A stretch of 44,174 nucleotides of DNA, taken from contig NZ_NHSQ01000128.1 of NCBI RefSeq assembly GCF_016653465.1, positions 1 to 44,174 of the forward strand, read 5' to 3'. A model generated the notes under the pieces. The model saw nothing but the letters and a program-made list of their open reading frames with translations, was not told where the DNA came from and made no database searches. The position numbers and the translations under genes are program-made. The stretch's first letter is position 1. Each line of letters opens with the position of its first letter. This DNA comes from Thiocystis minor (lineage in GTDB: Bacteria; Pseudomonadota; Gammaproteobacteria; Chromatiales; Chromatiaceae). Below are positions 37,335 through 43,596 of this stretch, piece by piece.

Positions 37335-38216
37335 CTAGAGAGCTTCGCGCGCGGTTCGATTCTTTGTCGTTTCCGCGTCCTGTTCAACCCGCACATAGCC
37401 GGTCATGTCCTTTGCGATACAGATGATATCGCTGATGTTTCCCGCGCCGTCCTTGACGGCGGTCCGGGAAAAGAGGATCGGGACGCGCCGCCCGTCGCTG
37501 GCAATCAAGCGCGCATCGATCTTGCTGAGCGCACCGGTGCGGATCAGTGCCTCCAGCCAGGTTCCCATGAAGGCGCCAGCTTCCTCGTCGCCTTCTTCCT
37601 CGAAGACATCGCCGATCGGCATGCCGAGCAGATCCTCGCGACGGTACCCCAGCATGCGGCAGGCCGCGGGATTCGTCATCTTGATGGTGCCGTCCGATGC
37701 CAGCACCAGCAGTGCCTCGCCCATGTGTGTGATGATGTTTTCAAGATATTGACGGGCTTCGGCCAGTTCCAGGGTCCGTTCCTCGACCTTGCGTTCGAGG
37801 TTGCGGTTGATCTCGCGTTCCTTCTCGATCAACCGGAAGTAGGTGCTGATCTTGTTGATCAGCTGATTGTCCTCGATCGGCTTGAGCAGATAATCAGCCG
37901 CGCCGACCGCGAACCCACGTTGCTGAAATTCCTCCGATTTGAAGGCGGCGGTCAGGAAGATGATGGGGATGTCGCGGGAGCGTTTGCGCAATTTGAGCAT
38001 GGACGCGGTCTGAAAGCCGTCCATCTCGGGCATCTGGACATCCAGGATAATGAGGTCGATGTCCGGGTGCTGGTGGGTCAGGTCGATCGCCTCCTGACCG
38101 GAAGAGGCTTCCAGCACGGTAGCATCCATGTGCGTCTTGATCAGCGTGCGCAGCGTGAAGAGGTTATGCGCATGGTCATCGACGATCAGGAGTTTGAATC
38201 CGGCGTAGCGATTCAT
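37335..38216 (-). CDS. Response regulator: receiver plus PAS domain
   Basis: The protein has 293 residues. The receiver (about 7-122) has DD at 13-14, phosphoacceptor D59 (IILDVQMPEMDG) and K112. A coiled coil (about 125-158, EKEREINRNLERKVEERTL) links it to a PAS domain (about 160-282, NPAACRMLGYRREDLLGM). No output enzyme or DNA-binding domain is present. The start overlaps the stop of the upstream kinase (ATGA), and the ArsR gene begins nine bases after its stop. It probably relays the kinase signal by protein contact. Confidence 0.9.
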   Translation of the reverse strand: MNRYAGFKLLIVDDHAHNLFTLRTLIKTHMDATVLEASSGQEAIDLTHQHPDIDLIILDVQMPEMDGFQTASMLKLRKRSRDIPIIFLTAAFKSEEFQQRGFAVGAADYLLKPIEDNQLINKISTYFRLIEKEREINRNLERKVEERTLELAEARQYLENIITHMGEALLVLASDGTIKMTNPAACRMLGYRREDLLGMPIGDVFEEEGDEEAGAFMGTWLEALIRTGALSKIDARLIASDGRRVPILFSRTAVKDGAGNISDIICIAKDMTGYVRVEQDAETTKNRTAREAL

Positions 38217-40675
38217 CCGTTCGTCTCCACGAATTCGCGCCTGGTAAGCGCCTGCTGGTTGGTCGAGCTTGGGCCAGGGTCATCCGGCGATCCTGCGGCC
38301 AGGCTTGTGACGGGCGTCGCGCCAGGCGCTTGCGCGACGAACTTGTCCGGGAACACATCGGCGAGCAACAGACTGAGTCGGTCGGCAGCGATGGGCTTGG
38401 AGAGAAAATCGATCGCGCCCACGCCCAGACACCCCTCGATCTGGCTCTCGGTGCCTGGTTCGCCCAGCACGGCGACCATCGGATGCGGGCCTTGCGTCCG
38501 TTTTAACAGGCTCTGGATCGTATCACAGGTGCTGGCGGCGGACATCCGGGCGGCGAGCAGCACCAGTTCGCAGCCTTCGCCTTCTTCCTGCAGGGTCTCC
38601 AATGCCTCGTCGAGATCGGCGGCGGTCTGGACCCGCAGACCGCGCCGCGTGAGATCGGAGGCGAGTTGAATCAGCGTTTTGACGTCACGTTCGATGATCA
38701 GCACCCAGGGGGCGCCGGGGAGGATGCCGGATTCCGCGACGATCTCGGTGCGCGGCTCGAAGACAAGGTCATCGGAGGCCGCCGATGGCGGTGCGCCGTG
38801 AGTCAGGACGGGCTCGGGCACCTGCCCGTTGGCGGCCGAGAGCGGTAGCAGCAGTGAAAAGCGGGCGCCGGCGCCGGGGGCGCTTTCCACATCGATGCGC
38901 CCGCCGAGCAGGGCGGCCAGTTCGCGGCTGATGGAGAGTCCGAGTCCGGTACCGCCGTAGCGGCGTCGGGTAGAGCCGTCAGCCTGCTGGAACGCCTCGA
39001 AGATGATGGATTGTTTGTCCTCGGGAATGCCGATGCCGGTGTCCACCACGCTGATCGCTACCGGCCGTCGGGCGTCCGCGCGCGCCTCGACCATCACCAC
39101 CACCTGACCGCGATCGGTGAACTTGGCCGCATTCGAGAGAAAATTCTTGAGGATCTGCCGGAGTTTGTCGCGGTCGGTATAGAGACGCGACACGGCGCGC
39201 GGGTCGATCGTCAGAGTCAGTTCCACCGGCTTGCCTGTGAGCAGAGGGCCGACCAGTTCGATCAGTTCCGCCAGCATGGGCCGCAGCTCGACCCAGTCCA
39301 GGGCCACTTTGACGTGCCCCGCCTCGATCTGCGAGATGTCGAGAATGTTGTCGATCATGGTGCGCAGATCGCGCCCTGCCTCGTGGATCACCTGGGCCTG
39401 GCGGCGCTGGCCGGCGTTCAGTCCGCCGGTCTCGGCGGCCAGCATCTTGGAGAGCAGCAGGATCGAATTCAGCGGGGTCCGCAGCTCATGGCTGACGTTG
39501 GTCAGGAACTGCGATTTATAACGGTTGGACTTTTCCAGCTCGCGGGCATGGGCCTGGGCCGCGCGCAGATGTTCGGCGTGCGTTTCCGCCAAGGTGGTGA
39601 GTTGTTCGCCCAGTTCGTGAATCTCGCGCGGTCCGCTCCAACTGAAATGCAATGGACGACCGTCGCGCAGGATATGGCCGATGCCCCCGGTGAGTTCCTT
39701 GCCGAAGTGCTCGGCGCGTTTGGCGATCCAGCGCGCCAGCACCAGGACCGCGACCACCAGCAGGAAGATGATCGAGAGCACCCGGATCATCAACTCGTTC
39801 CGGAAGGCGTCGATGGGAGAAGAATCGACCTCCCGCCCGACCCACAGCGGCAATCCGTCCTCGGTCAGAAACATGGGCAGCCAGAGCATCTGATGGCCTT
39901 GGGGACCTTTCCAGAGTGCGAGATTGCCGTCCGCGAAGATTTTGGCGAGTCCTGGAAAGGCATCGAAGGCCTCCGGATTGCCGCTGGCGGGCTGGTTCGG
40001 GCGCAGATAACTGCCGTCCTGGTTGACCCAGAGGGTGTCCCGATAGAACTGGGCCAGTCCGCCCACGTCGAGGGTCAGGGTGACCGCGCCGCGTGCGTCC
40101 TCGGCCTTCTCGCCACCGATCGGACTGACCAGATTCAGGGTCATGAGCTGGCGCGGATCCTCCGCGCCGGCCGCCGGGTCGATGCGGATGCGGCTGACGA
40201 TCACTCCGCCGGGCTGAAGTTCCAGCCCGGCGGACAGGAACTGCCGGTTCGGCGTCTGGGGGGGCTTGGCGGTCGGGCGCCATTCCTGACTCCGGGAATC
40301 GCGGACCAGCCAGAAGCGCTCCTGCGCGTCGTCGCCCACGAAGAGAATCTGGATGACGTCGCGCTGATCGGCAAAGATTTGATTGATCCAAGTGGTGTAA
40401 CGCGCGCGCGAGAGATCGATCTGATCCGCGTCGCCCTGCTCGCCCAGGATCAGCCCCGGCTCGGGCAGCTTGGAGAGCAGCCGGATCATTTCATGTCGAC
40501 TGGCCAGATGCTGGTCCAGGTCGCGGAAATCGGCCCGCAGATTCTGGAGATAGGCCCGTTGATAAAACAGCGTAGTGCGGTCGAGCACCAGTGGCAGATT
40601 GATCAGGAGCGCCAGGATCAGCGGCGTTAGACCGAAGACCAGCAGGAAGAGCAGGATGTAGACGCGCAGCTTCAC
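38213..40675 (-). CDS. Membrane hybrid histidine kinase with a degenerate receiver
   Basis: The protein has 820 residues. TM1 (about 5-28) and TM2 (about 297-316) flank a large periplasmic sensor of dCache type. A linker leads to H396 (NVSHELRTPLNSILLLSK), the N box NFLSNAAKF, DTGIGIPE and GGTGLGL, so the kinase core is complete. The C-terminal receiver-like domain (about 655-770) lacks the acidic pair (IERD at 661-664) and has alanine (A708) where the phosphoaspartate should be, although K760 remains. It is therefore a pseudoreceiver. The ligand is unknown. The gene heads an operon with the REC-PAS and ArsR genes. Confidence 0.9.
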   Translation of the reverse strand: MKLRVYILLFLLVFGLTPLILALLINLPLVLDRTTLFYQRAYLQNLRADFRDLDQHLASRHEMIRLLSKLPEPGLILGEQGDADQIDLSRARYTTWINQIFADQRDVIQILFVGDDAQERFWLVRDSRSQEWRPTAKPPQTPNRQFLSAGLELQPGGVIVSRIRIDPAAGAEDPRQLMTLNLVSPIGGEKAEDARGAVTLTLDVGGLAQFYRDTLWVNQDGSYLRPNQPASGNPEAFDAFPGLAKIFADGNLALWKGPQGHQMLWLPMFLTEDGLPLWVGREVDSSPIDAFRNELMIRVLSIIFLLVVAVLVLARWIAKRAEHFGKELTGGIGHILRDGRPLHFSWSGPREIHELGEQLTTLAETHAEHLRAAQAHARELEKSNRYKSQFLTNVSHELRTPLNSILLLSKMLAAETGGLNAGQRRQAQVIHEAGRDLRTMIDNILDISQIEAGHVKVALDWVELRPMLAELIELVGPLLTGKPVELTLTIDPRAVSRLYTDRDKLRQILKNFLSNAAKFTDRGQVVVMVEARADARRPVAISVVDTGIGIPEDKQSIIFEAFQQADGSTRRRYGGTGLGLSISRELAALLGGRIDVESAPGAGARFSLLLPLSAANGQVPEPVLTHGAPPSAASDDLVFEPRTEIVAESGILPGAPWVLIIERDVKTLIQLASDLTRRGLRVQTAADLDEALETLQEEGEGCELVLLAARMSAASTCDTIQSLLKRTQGPHPMVAVLGEPGTESQIEGCLGVGAIDFLSKPIAADRLSLLLADVFPDKFVAQAPGATPVTSLAAGSPDDPGPSSTNQQALTRREFVETNG

Positions 40676-40708
40676 GCGCGGGGGCGGCGCGCTGCGTGGT
40701 GACGCGCG

Positions 40709-41182
40709 CTATCCATCCGACAAGTCCCGCGCCAGTCGGAGAACCTCGGCGGCATGTCCCTTGGGCTTGACATCGTAGAGGGCATGACGGATCAGGCCCT
40801 GTTTGTCGACGATGAAGGTCGAGCGCACGATACCCATGCGCTTCTCGCCGTGGGCTTCTTTTTCGCGCCAGACACCGTAGGCTTCGCACGCCTCGCCATC
40901 GGTGTCGGAGAGCAGATGCACGGTCAGCCCGTATTTGTCCCGGAAGGCGCCGTGACTGGTACAGGAATCGCGGCTGATCCCGATCACCTCGGTCTCGGTT
41001 TGGTCGAATTCCGTTTGCAGATCGGTGAATTCCAGCGCCTCCATGGTGCAGCCAGGCGTGTCGTCCTTGGGATAAAAATAGAGGACAGTGTGTCGGCGGC
41101 CGATCAGATCCTCAAGGTTGACCCGCTCCATATCCGCATTGGGTAATGAGAAGAGAGGGGCCTGGTCGCCTGCGTGCAGCAT
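40709..41182 (-). CDS. bcp: Peroxiredoxin PrxQ/Bcp, possible separate internal start
   Basis: From ATG 41182 the frame gives a full 157-residue Bcp-type peroxiredoxin: LHAGDQAPLFSLPN, the peroxidatic C45 in YPKDDTPGCT, then DLQTEFDQTETEVIGISRDS and VRSTFIVDKQGLI. The usual PrxQ resolving cysteine five residues after C45 is leucine here. C99 (ACEAYGVW) and a cysteine in SRDSC remain, so the recycling mechanism may differ. GGAG lies about nine bases before the ATG, and a promoter-like sequence is at 41219-41247. These support independent translation nested inside the larger frame. It reduces organic and hydrogen peroxides using thioredoxin in the cytoplasm. Confidence 0.75.
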   Translation of the reverse strand: MLHAGDQAPLFSLPNADMERVNLEDLIGRRHTVLYFYPKDDTPGCTMEALEFTDLQTEFDQTETEVIGISRDSCTSHGAFRDKYGLTVHLLSDTDGEACEAYGVWREKEAHGEKRMGIVRSTFIVDKQGLIRHALYDVKPKGHAAEVLRLARDLSDG

Positions 41183-42583
41183 CGTCGAATGCTCCGGTGA
41201 TAATGGTGGTCGAGCGCGAATGTAGGCACCCCTGGCCTGTCCGTCAACTCCCTTGCCGTCGGCGCCCGCGCCCATCTCGATGGCGGGCAGTCTCACCGTC
41301 GCGATGGTGCCGCCGCCGCGACGCAAGCCCAAACGCAGTTCCATCTGGTTGGCCAGCGCCAACTGATGCGCGACCGCCAGGCCCAATCCGCTGCCGCCGG
41401 TCTGGCGATTCCGCGAGGCTTCCAGCCGATAATAGGGCATAAGCACCGCGTCGCGTTCGGCGTCCGGAATCCCGGGACCGCGGTCGAGGACGAAGATCGC
41501 GGGTTGGGGCGCCTGACAGTCCAGATAGACGTCCACCCGTTCATGGCTGTAGCGGAGCGCATTTTCAAGCAGGTTGCCAAGGATGCGCCGCAGGGCTAGC
41601 GCGTCCACATGATAGGGGCAGCAGGGGCCGCGCTGCCAGACGATGCGGGGTCGGCCGATGACCAGGTCTTCCACCAGCGCGGCCAGATCCACATCCTCGC
41701 GCCGCCCGGCACCAAGGCTTTTGCCGAACTCGATGGCCTGGGTAATGAGTGCGTTCATCTCCTCGATGTCGCGCTCCATGCGGGAAACCAGTGTCTGCGC
41801 GGTCCCGGCGGGCAGCATCTCGACCGCCAGTCGCAGGCGCGTCAGGGGGGTGCGCAGATCGTGCGAGACCCCGGTCAGGAGCAGCGTGCGATTGGCAAGA
41901 AGTTCGCGGATCTGACGGCTGGTCTCGTTGAACTGACGGGCCAGATTCGCCAGTTCCGTGGGGCCTGTCTCCGGCAGTGCATGAGGCGAAAACCCCTGCG
42001 CGACCTGTTCGGCGGCCTTGGAGAGTCGTTGCAGCGGCTGGGTCACCCGTCCCGCCAGGATCGCCGCCGTGCCGAGGATCAGGAGCGCCGCGACGCCAAA
42101 GATGACCGACAGCGCCTGCAATGGGCGGGTTCCCAGGCGGCTGCGCGGAAAGCCGGTCCAGAGCGTGCCGTCGTCCACGTCCAGCGCCACCCAGAACCAG
42201 CGTTCGCCGTTGGCGACGCTGGTGACGACCTCGATCGGTCGACCGAGACGTTCTGCGAGTGCCTGCTTGAACTGACTCAGATAGGGAAAGAAATAGCGCG
42301 TTTGGTCCGCGAGGGGGCGTTCCTCGGCCAGCCGGATCTGGTATTCGCGTGCGAGGCGCGTGCGGTAATCCTCCCGCAGGCTCGGCGGGAGCTGCTGTAA
42401 GGTCCGGGCCGACAGCACCATGATGCTGGCCAGATCAGCGGCGGAACGCTGGGCGACGGGAACCAGCGCGTAAAAGACGATCGCGGAAATGGTGACCAGC
42501 GCGAACAGCCCGAAGGTCAGGATCAGCGTGAGAAGCGCGCGCCCGAAGAGCGTCGCCGGGACGATCCGTCCCCGCCGGATCAT
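40709..42583 (-). CDS. EnvZ-like histidine kinase fused in frame to a PrxQ/Bcp peroxiredoxin
   Basis: An uninterrupted frame of 624 codons. Residues 1-435 form an EnvZ-type kinase: TM helices at about 14-42 and 158-178, HAMP, H241 (GVSHDLRTPLTRLRL), LLENALRYS, DRGPGIP, GGSGLGLAVA. Residues 468-624 form a complete peroxiredoxin of 157 residues. A linker of about 30 residues (GAGADGKGVDGQARGAYIRA and following) joins them and has no domain character. EnvZ-type proteins normally end near residue 440. The linker DNA contains a promoter-like sequence and a ribosome-binding site, so the peroxiredoxin may also, or only, be made alone. The start overlaps the regulator stop (ATGA). Confidence 0.8.
   Translation of the reverse strand: MIRRGRIVPATLFGRALLTLILTFGLFALVTISAIVFYALVPVAQRSAADLASIMVLSARTLQQLPPSLREDYRTRLAREYQIRLAEERPLADQTRYFFPYLSQFKQALAERLGRPIEVVTSVANGERWFWVALDVDDGTLWTGFPRSRLGTRPLQALSVIFGVAALLILGTAAILAGRVTQPLQRLSKAAEQVAQGFSPHALPETGPTELANLARQFNETSRQIRELLANRTLLLTGVSHDLRTPLTRLRLAVEMLPAGTAQTLVSRMERDIEEMNALITQAIEFGKSLGAGRREDVDLAALVEDLVIGRPRIVWQRGPCCPYHVDALALRRILGNLLENALRYSHERVDVYLDCQAPQPAIFVLDRGPGIPDAERDAVLMPYYRLEASRNRQTGGSGLGLAVAHQLALANQMELRLGLRRGGGTIATVRLPAIEMGAGADGKGVDGQARGAYIRARPPLSPEHSTMLHAGDQAPLFSLPNADMERVNLEDLIGRRHTVLYFYPKDDTPGCTMEALEFTDLQTEFDQTETEVIGISRDSCTSHGAFRDKYGLTVHLLSDTDGEACEAYGVWREKEAHGEKRMGIVRSTFIVDKQGLIRHALYDVKPKGHAAEVLRLARDLSDG
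41219..41247 (-). promoter_or_regulatory. Sigma-70-like promoter before the peroxiredoxin start
   Basis: On the minus strand TTGACG (41247-41242) and TACATT (41224-41219) are separated by exactly 17 bases. They match the consensus at 5 of 6 and 4 of 6 positions. The expected transcript would start about 30 bases before ATG 41182. The site lies inside the kinase-peroxiredoxin linker. Confidence 0.5.
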
Positions 42584-43296
42584 GACTCTCCCATCGGCGT
42601 AAACATATAGCCCTTGCCCCAGATGGTGCGGATGTAGCGCGGTTGTTTGATCTCGGGTTCGATCTTGGCCCGCAACCGGGCAATTTGCACGTCGATGCTG
42701 CGGTCGAAAGGCGCACGTTCGTTACCTTTTAACAGGTCCAGTAACCGATCGCGGTTCAGCACCCGATCCGGATGCTCGGCCAGCACCAGCAACAGATCGA
42801 ATTCGCCGCTCGTCAGGCTGACTGGTTGATGGTGGCAAAGCAGTTCATGCTGGAGCGGATCGAGCCGGTAGGGGCCAAAGTGGATGATGCCGTCTCTTTC
42901 CGGACCTTCCTCCGGCGCGCTCGGTCCGCGGCGGCGCATCACGGCGCGGATGCGCGCCAGCAGCTCCCGAGGGTTGAAGGGCTTGGCAAGATAGTCGTCG
43001 GCGCCAACCTCCAGGCCGACAATCCGATCCACGTCATCCCCACGCGCCGATAACATGATGATCGGCAGATCGGCCTGGGTGCGCAGGCGCCGGGCGATCG
43101 CCAGTCCATCCTCGCCAGGCAGCATCAAGTCCAGAATGATCAGGTCCGTCTCATGCCCGGCCAGCCAGGCGTCCATGGCACGACCATCCTCGGCACCGCC
43201 AACGCTAAAGCCTTCGCGGGCTAGGTAATCAGTCAACAGGGCGCGCAAGCCGGCATCATCGTCGACGACCAGGATTCGCATCGGGTGTTCAGGCAT
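42580..43296 (-). CDS. OmpR-family response regulator
   Basis: The protein has 238 residues. The receiver has DDD near 12-14, phosphoacceptor D56 (DLIILDLMLPGEDG) and K105. The C-terminal winged helix (about 140-235) has LTSGEFDLLLVLAEHPDRVL, RSIDVQIARLRAKIE and the terminal YIRTIWGKGYMF. This is close to OmpR itself. It is translationally coupled to the EnvZ-like kinase through ATGA. The start may be ATG 43296 or the ATG five codons later. Targets are unknown, as no porin gene is nearby. Confidence 0.93.
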   Translation of the reverse strand: MPEHPMRILVVDDDAGLRALLTDYLAREGFSVGGAEDGRAMDAWLAGHETDLIILDLMLPGEDGLAIARRLRTQADLPIIMLSARGDDVDRIVGLEVGADDYLAKPFNPRELLARIRAVMRRRGPSAPEEGPERDGIIHFGPYRLDPLQHELLCHHQPVSLTSGEFDLLLVLAEHPDRVLNRDRLLDLLKGNERAPFDRSIDVQIARLRAKIEPEIKQPRYIRTIWGKGYMFTPMGES

Positions 43297-43321
43297 GTCG
43301 AAACAGCGCTCCGCACAGGCG

Positions 43322-43409
43322 TTAAACCGCGTCTGCTCCGGCGGTCATGGATTTTGATCAACCCAGACACTCGCTCGAAACGACGCGGATCGCGCTGGAC
43401 GCGGTTTTA
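43322..43409 (+). repeat. Inverted-ended repeat family, copy C (solitary)
   Basis: This 88-base unit runs from TTAAACCGCGTC to GACGCGGTTTTA. It shares CCGCGTCTGCTCCG with the inverted right end of copy A and ACTCGAAAC-like and GCTGGACGCGG segments with D (inverted) and B. It lies in front of the OmpR-family gene, which reads away from it. Confidence 0.8.
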
Positions 43410-43596
43410 GGAGGAACCGAAACAATTTGATACAATATTAGCAGATACCGAAATACTCTGTTAATACCGATCCGATAAACTTCACCAAGATTTCATGCCT
43501 GTCAGGCCGTAACCTTTGGCCAAACTGCTGAGAAGGTTCTGGCGCTCGGAAGGTCATGGAGCTTTTTCTTATCCCATTGACTCTGGAGACAAACCC

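Follow-up and report, generated by a model that had tools for sequence, protein, structure and literature searches.

An EnvZ-like histidine kinase gene of Thiocystis minor continues in frame through a predicted promoter into a PrxQ/Bcp peroxiredoxin

Results

Organization of the kinase-peroxiredoxin locus

The DNA analyzed here, referred to as the window, is a 44,174-nucleotide stretch of the Thiocystis minor genome (contig NZ_NHSQ01000128.1). On its reverse strand, an OmpR-like response regulator gene precedes a single open reading frame that joins an EnvZ-like histidine kinase to a PrxQ/Bcp peroxiredoxin, and a hybrid sensor kinase gene follows. The features of the locus, each with its basis, are as follows.

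43435..43464 (-), promoter-like site TTAACA-18-TAATAT 5' of the response regulator (consensus match only)
42580..43296 (-), OmpR-like response regulator, overlapping the kinase start by 4 bases (ATGA) (ORF, Pfam, NCBIfam)
40709..42583 (-), fused ORF of 624 aa, EnvZ-like histidine kinase, linker and PrxQ/Bcp peroxiredoxin (ORF listing; frame shared with genomes G004 and G005)
41279..42583 (-), kinase part, aa 1-435, with RisS-like periplasmic region, HAMP, HisKA (HDLRTP) and HATPase_c (Pfam)
41183..41278 (-), linker, aa 436-467, the promoter and 5' leader of PrxQ read as protein (alignment)
41219..41247 (-), predicted PrxQ promoter TTGACG-17-TACATT within the kinase frame (consensus scan, conservation)
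41192..41195 (-), putative PrxQ ribosome-binding site GGAG (sequence)
40709..41182 (-), PrxQ/Bcp with its own ATG at 41182, 157 aa, peroxidatic Cys45, Cys74 and Cys99 (Pfam, alignment)
38213..40675 (-), hybrid sensor kinase immediately 3' of PrxQ after a gap of about 35 bases (Pfam, neighbor search)

The fused frame opens with ATG and runs for 624 codons with zero internal stops. A Pfam search with the 624-aa protein placed HAMP, HisKA and HATPase_c above their cut-offs, followed by an AhpC-TSA domain (aa 472-600) that also exceeded its cut-off, and the RisS-like periplasmic region of the kinase scored slightly below its own. An initial annotation of this DNA had described a kinase that lacks a stop codon and runs into a full PrxQ, and the frame and the Pfam domains of both proteins bear out that description. 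The promoter sequence that it had reported at 41247-41219 (-), as well as the GGAG at 41195-41192 preceding ATG 41182, was likewise found as claimed.

Assignment of the kinase and the peroxiredoxin

With HAMP, HisKA and HATPase_c all above cut-off, the kinase part carries the domains of an EnvZ-type kinase. The best NCBIfam matches were EnvZ for the kinase (230 bits, cut-off 415) and OmpR for the regulator (292.5 bits, cut-off 331), both below the equivalog cut-offs, and by these profile scores the kinase is EnvZ-like, not EnvZ. The two overlapping genes thus resemble EnvZ/OmpR systems in their best matches, but the kinase of the window bears a 190-residue C-terminal extension with PrxQ.

The peroxiredoxin part scored far above the Pfam cut-offs for AhpC-TSA (125 versus 26 bits) and Redoxin (62 versus 26.6 bits); it missed the NCBIfam PRK09437 equivalog cut-off (129.5 versus 140 bits) when scored on the whole fused protein. 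Its active-site sequence PKDDTPGC agrees with Pxxx(T/S)xxC, which the Prx atlas gives as the active-site motif of PrxQ/Bcp peroxiredoxins (PMC5302317). Peroxidatic Cys45 is present in 103/103 aligned homologs. The initial annotation had stated that the usual resolving cysteine is lacking, which holds at the +5 position, where position 50 is a leucine; cysteine occurs there in 15 of the 103 homologs. However, two other cysteines are present, Cys74 (66/103 homologs) and Cys99 (77/103). A cysteine at +5 does not appear to be a required feature, because the atlas states that the location of the resolving cysteine is not consistent among four PrxQ proteins belonging to one structural group (PMC5302317).

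Known structures provide further points of comparison. PrxQ/Bcp proteins such as PDB 5enu and 5iox are alike in sequence, including the peroxidatic cysteine within Pxxx(T/S)xxC and a GIxRSTF region with a conserved arginine, whereas the PrxQ of the window has Cys74 and Cys99 in place of a +5 cysteine. In 5iox, which we take to be a Xanthomonas PrxQ, the cysteine of the FCAKQG segment aligns with Arg81 of the window PrxQ; this cysteine is presumably C84, with a resolving role. PDB 4eo3, titled Bcp/NADH dehydrogenase, is alike in chaining a Bcp domain to another domain, as judged from its title and matched range only. Its Bcp match is N-terminal, however (21-132 of 322), whereas in the window Bcp forms the C-terminal end of a kinase and has retained its own predicted promoter and start codon. 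As a separate observation, Cys74 lies 29 residues past the peroxidatic cysteine and may be a candidate alternative resolving cysteine.

The fused frame is shared by three genomes of one clade

In a search of 54 genomes (the genome of the window and its relatives), an unbroken frame over residues 1-624 was also present in G005 (95% identity) and G004 (93%), which are two of six congeneric genomes besides that of the window. The search of relatives that the initial annotation had proposed thus recovered the fused frame within the genus. Linker length among the three fused genomes differs by one in-frame 6-base step, and in a kinase tree of 51 genomes the trio (G000, G004 and G005) forms one clade with support of 100/99. 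Among the remaining congeners, G001 has the kinase and PrxQ adjacent in differing frames, G002 has both genes apart, and G003 and G006 gave a close match for PrxQ only.

A sequencing or assembly error that hides a stop codon would produce the same appearance, and we rejected this explanation as having next to no probability, because the uninterrupted frame recurs in G004 and G005; the three genomes differ at many sites, and one of them is a single 5.0-Mb contig. One open frame over both domains is therefore present in three independent genomes, and the clade-specific kinase-PrxQ fusion is genuine at the gene level.

A long open frame by itself was rejected as proof of fusion on account of two counterexamples. 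In L166, PrxQ sits within a long open frame whose register differs from that of the kinase, and in G013 a reported 958-codon frame passes the PrxQ stop TAG and enters a same-frame hybrid kinase. These came from an order-wide PrxQ search with a match in at least 173 of 210 genomes, which served only to choose long-frame cases and was not a full fusion survey. An open linker is likewise weak evidence alone, one of the remaining two frames being open there as well in the fused trio.

A conserved predicted promoter precedes PrxQ

A consensus scan of positions 40500-43500 returned two promoter-like sites, one of them the PrxQ promoter. This site matches the consensus at 9/12 positions and has the hexamers and the 17-base spacing of a sigma-70-type promoter, conserved beyond chance. 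A strict form, TTGAC-N18-TAVATT, was found in 67 of 92 distinct regions upstream of PrxQ homologs (≥55% identity; related genomes, which by descent amount to fewer independent cases) but did not occur once when these regions were dinucleotide-shuffled in 50 rounds. Within the 67 strict matches the -10 element was CCTAAATT in 30 and CCTACATT in 25; TTGACG was present in 64 and CC before the -10 in 61. Upstream of more distant homologs (methanotrophs, betaproteobacteria and others), a looser form was mostly absent. The closest unfused relatives that were aligned have GGAG or GGAA at the position of the ribosome-binding site. On the basis of the consensus match and its strong conservation in relatives without the fusion, this element is a predicted promoter of PrxQ.

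We also considered the motif as a mark of a regulon. The genome of the window contains three exact matches, against none in a reversed-pattern control, and CC precedes the -10 in only one of them; the other two matches have no neighboring peroxiredoxin when inspected by eye, and the idea was set aside. The constancy of TTGACG and CC upstream of PrxQ is unusual for a plain sigma-70 promoter, and a second recognizing factor is possible.

Kinase genes of the family often end inside the PrxQ promoter

In order to compare the kinase-PrxQ junction across relatives, we used 51 genomes of the family, each counted once, whose orthologous kinase shares at least about 50% identity. They came from 194 family genomes searched, which were drawn from a larger group, and from 20 further junctions. 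Kinase matches below about 50% identity (mostly other paralogs) were left out, as were G066 (43%, several stops; the same as L182), G074 (59% kinase, contig end) and L033-L035, which are duplicate records of G127, G096 and G095.

PrxQ lies directly 3' of the kinase on the same strand in 48 of the 51 genomes, and within 1.5 kb of the kinase it was not found in the other three (G002, G149 and G055). All 48 kinase-PrxQ loci have at least a loose match to the promoter, that of G015 being poor. Counting from the first base of the -35, the kinase stop falls at +23 in 18/48 (the TAA contained in the -10 TAAATT), at +1 in 6/48 (the TGA contained in the -35 TTGACG) and in the spacer (+5 or +8) in 3/48. 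Another 18 kinases stop 5' of the promoter, so the borrowed promoter stop is frequent and not universal, and in the remaining three the frame reads through, which leaves 45/48 loci unfused. From the kinase stops inside the PrxQ promoter in the family, it follows that the linker of the window is the promoter and leader of PrxQ being translated.

The clade of the window shares the frame of the +23 group. Its -10 is TACATT, with the codon TAC in place of TAA, and because of this variant the frame meets no stop; the promoter still fits in this clade because TACATT is itself common. Of the unfused kinases, 11/45 are in phase with PrxQ, which does not exceed the 15 that chance would give. Three of the 11 have a single stop separating kinase and PrxQ, and it belongs to the promoter itself, as the TAA of the -10 in G076 and G147 and as a spacer TAG in G058. 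The sole stop precedes the promoter in G107, and the other seven have two to five stops. The initial annotation had named orthologs whose kinase ends before the linker, and whose linker frame is not conserved, as evidence against its reading; across the family, kinases do end ahead of the linker or inside it, and most of them lie in a different frame, but this is not so in the two closest species.

Other upstream genes run into a peroxiredoxin

Genes other than the kinase also meet this promoter. In G060 (L140), an MCP-like frame stops at the TGA of the PrxQ -35, and in G003 (L015) a likely gene, its frame judged by eye, ends at +8 in the promoter spacer. In G014 (L189:1651-4197), the upstream gene is TmcA-like and crosses this promoter motif in the third frame, which is stopless in both hexamers and in phase with PrxQ, giving an 848-aa TmcA-PrxQ frame. 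The Pfam TmcA domains of this upstream protein are above cut-off, and its NCBIfam TmcA score is 363 bits against 700. In an alphaproteobacterial MAG (L099:3013-6495), GlnE reads into a peroxiredoxin as a 1160-aa frame without this promoter motif. Both cases are like the kinase-PrxQ frame in that an upstream gene enters a complete peroxiredoxin in frame, and the TmcA-like gene crosses the same motif, but their upstream partners are unrelated to the kinase and each was seen in one genome. G028 (L018:1-1518) has a response regulator, an apparent short kinase remnant (by eye) and then an intact PrxQ with its promoter. Because other upstream genes end in or cross the promoter, PrxQ looks like an independent unit, into which upstream genes have read through on more than one occasion.

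Selection on the linker and the two domains

For the linker (aa 434-467), the three pairs of fused genomes pooled gave 17 nonsynonymous changes over 232 sites and 7 synonymous changes over 80. The resulting pN/pS was about 0.8, versus about 0.2 for the kinase, with a Fisher p of 0.03 or 0.06 depending on the rounding of halved counts, the pairs being non-independent and the counts small. These small numbers suggest that the protein sequence of the linker evolves near neutrality, an estimate resting on few changes because there are only three genomes, in which a single event is inferred. Ala, Gly, Pro and Arg are abundant in the linker, whose first part is variable.

In the trio, dN/dS was 0.14-0.21 for the kinase and 0.10-0.17 for PrxQ, higher than in 11 unfused pairs (0.06-0.12 and 0-0.09, respectively). 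Relaxed selection caused by the fusion was considered, and the values were not read in this way because those of neighboring genes are partly raised too: the response regulator gave 0.04-0.18 in the trio versus 0.03-0.09 in nine unfused pairs, and the hybrid kinase 0.05-0.12 versus 0.01-0.11. Because the fused kinase remains under purifying selection, a functional kinase can at the least accommodate the extension, which could also bring a benefit.

Discussion

Origin and products of the fusion

We consider it probable that the fusion arose when a kinase frame crossed a stopless TACATT variant of the PrxQ promoter, and that the extension is mostly a tolerated passenger while free PrxQ is also made. 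In this family, the kinase gene often runs directly into the PrxQ promoter, whose hexamers can supply stops in two of three frames (TGA in TTGACG; TAA or TAG in TAAATT or TAGATT). The kinase of one small clade lies in the frame that depends on the -10 for its stop, and the variant TACATT has none while the consensus is still satisfied. From there the frame proceeds through the PrxQ leader and is in phase with PrxQ, for which the chance is about one in three. Translation of the kinase from the operon transcript would then yield the 624-aa kinase-PrxQ protein, and the internal promoter and ribosome site would yield free PrxQ in addition, most likely as the main peroxidase. For the most part, the PrxQ attached to the kinase would be a tolerated passenger, cytoplasmic and joined by a flexible linker.

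The full-length product should be made by a ribosome that stays on the stopless message, as the genetic code offers no stop between the kinase and PrxQ. The initial annotation had posed a choice between a lost kinase stop with an accidental extension and a cell that makes dual products. Its observations stand, since the kinase stop is absent and PrxQ has a predicted promoter and ribosome site of its own, but the two alternatives are not exclusive: the stopless frame would give the fusion and the promoter the free enzyme.

The kinase and PrxQ could nevertheless be effectively separate, with the chain being cut or unstable or with most kinase transcripts ending before PrxQ. The composition of the linker and its variable first part agree with such an outcome, and protein tails are often trimmed. 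However, we found no terminator-like site on the coding strand in the interval between kinase and PrxQ, and a transcript that stopped within the linker would provide no stop codon for the kinase; we consider separation quite improbable.

A functional peroxide sensor has somewhat more in its favor and is still unlikely. Here the tethered PrxQ would oxidize, or be recognized by, its own kinase and so signal to the OmpR-like regulator, and free PrxQ would serve as the bulk enzyme. Ordinary termination cannot give a free kinase, purifying selection acts on kinase and PrxQ alike in the trio, both look intact by profile in the window, and from an EnvZ-like layout the kinase output domain and PrxQ should both be cytoplasmic. 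PrxQ also travels with sensory genes, because the kinase-PrxQ order is kept in 48/51 genomes and 31/48 loci have a hybrid sensor kinase after PrxQ. The fusion is nevertheless confined to a single small clade of three genomes among 48 loci in which the unfused arrangement is the rule (45/48), the changes in its linker are near neutral at the protein level, and G028 keeps PrxQ and its promoter beside the apparent kinase remnant. The in-frame peroxiredoxin tails on the unrelated TmcA-like and GlnE proteins argue for read-through rather than design. A dedicated redox input to the kinase, a possibility raised in the initial annotation, is not supported, and we do not favor it, because genes unrelated to the kinase also stop inside this promoter or continue across it.

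If the stopless promoter variant is indeed the origin, this gene family illustrates how two domains can become fused with no rearrangement of the DNA. The upstream gene borrows its stop from a downstream promoter, and the common -10 variant TACATT, unlike TAAATT, lacks that stop while the promoter stays close to consensus. Fused, nearly fused (a single in-promoter stop) and separate states coexist in living relatives, and because all three exist, whether fusing the kinase to the peroxiredoxin is costly or beneficial is directly testable. The promoter-embedded stop also calls for caution, as a gene annotated as a fusion is not necessarily a designed sensor. Were the sensor reading true, the same DNA would give a peroxide-sensing kinase and a free enzyme by way of a one-letter promoter variant. 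Among the titles and abstract openings covered by literature searches on kinase-peroxiredoxin fusions, promoter-overlapping stop codons, read-through or stop-loss fusions, the resolving cysteine of PrxQ and Thiocystis kinases, with subscription papers mostly outside their scope, none described the arrangement reported here.

The hybrid sensor kinase downstream of PrxQ

Among 31 PrxQ loci that lack the upstream kinase, 13 have a relative of the downstream hybrid sensor kinase after PrxQ, compared with 31 of the 48 kinase-adjacent loci. These other loci were chosen, not random, and 33 were listed, with L188 and L189 uncounted. On account of both frequencies, PrxQ and the hybrid kinase may form a functional unit. 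At L188 (G013:C2:193000-199000), PrxQ and the downstream hybrid kinase are in the same frame with a single PrxQ stop, TAG, between them, which may represent a near-fusion at the opposite end of the peroxiredoxin.
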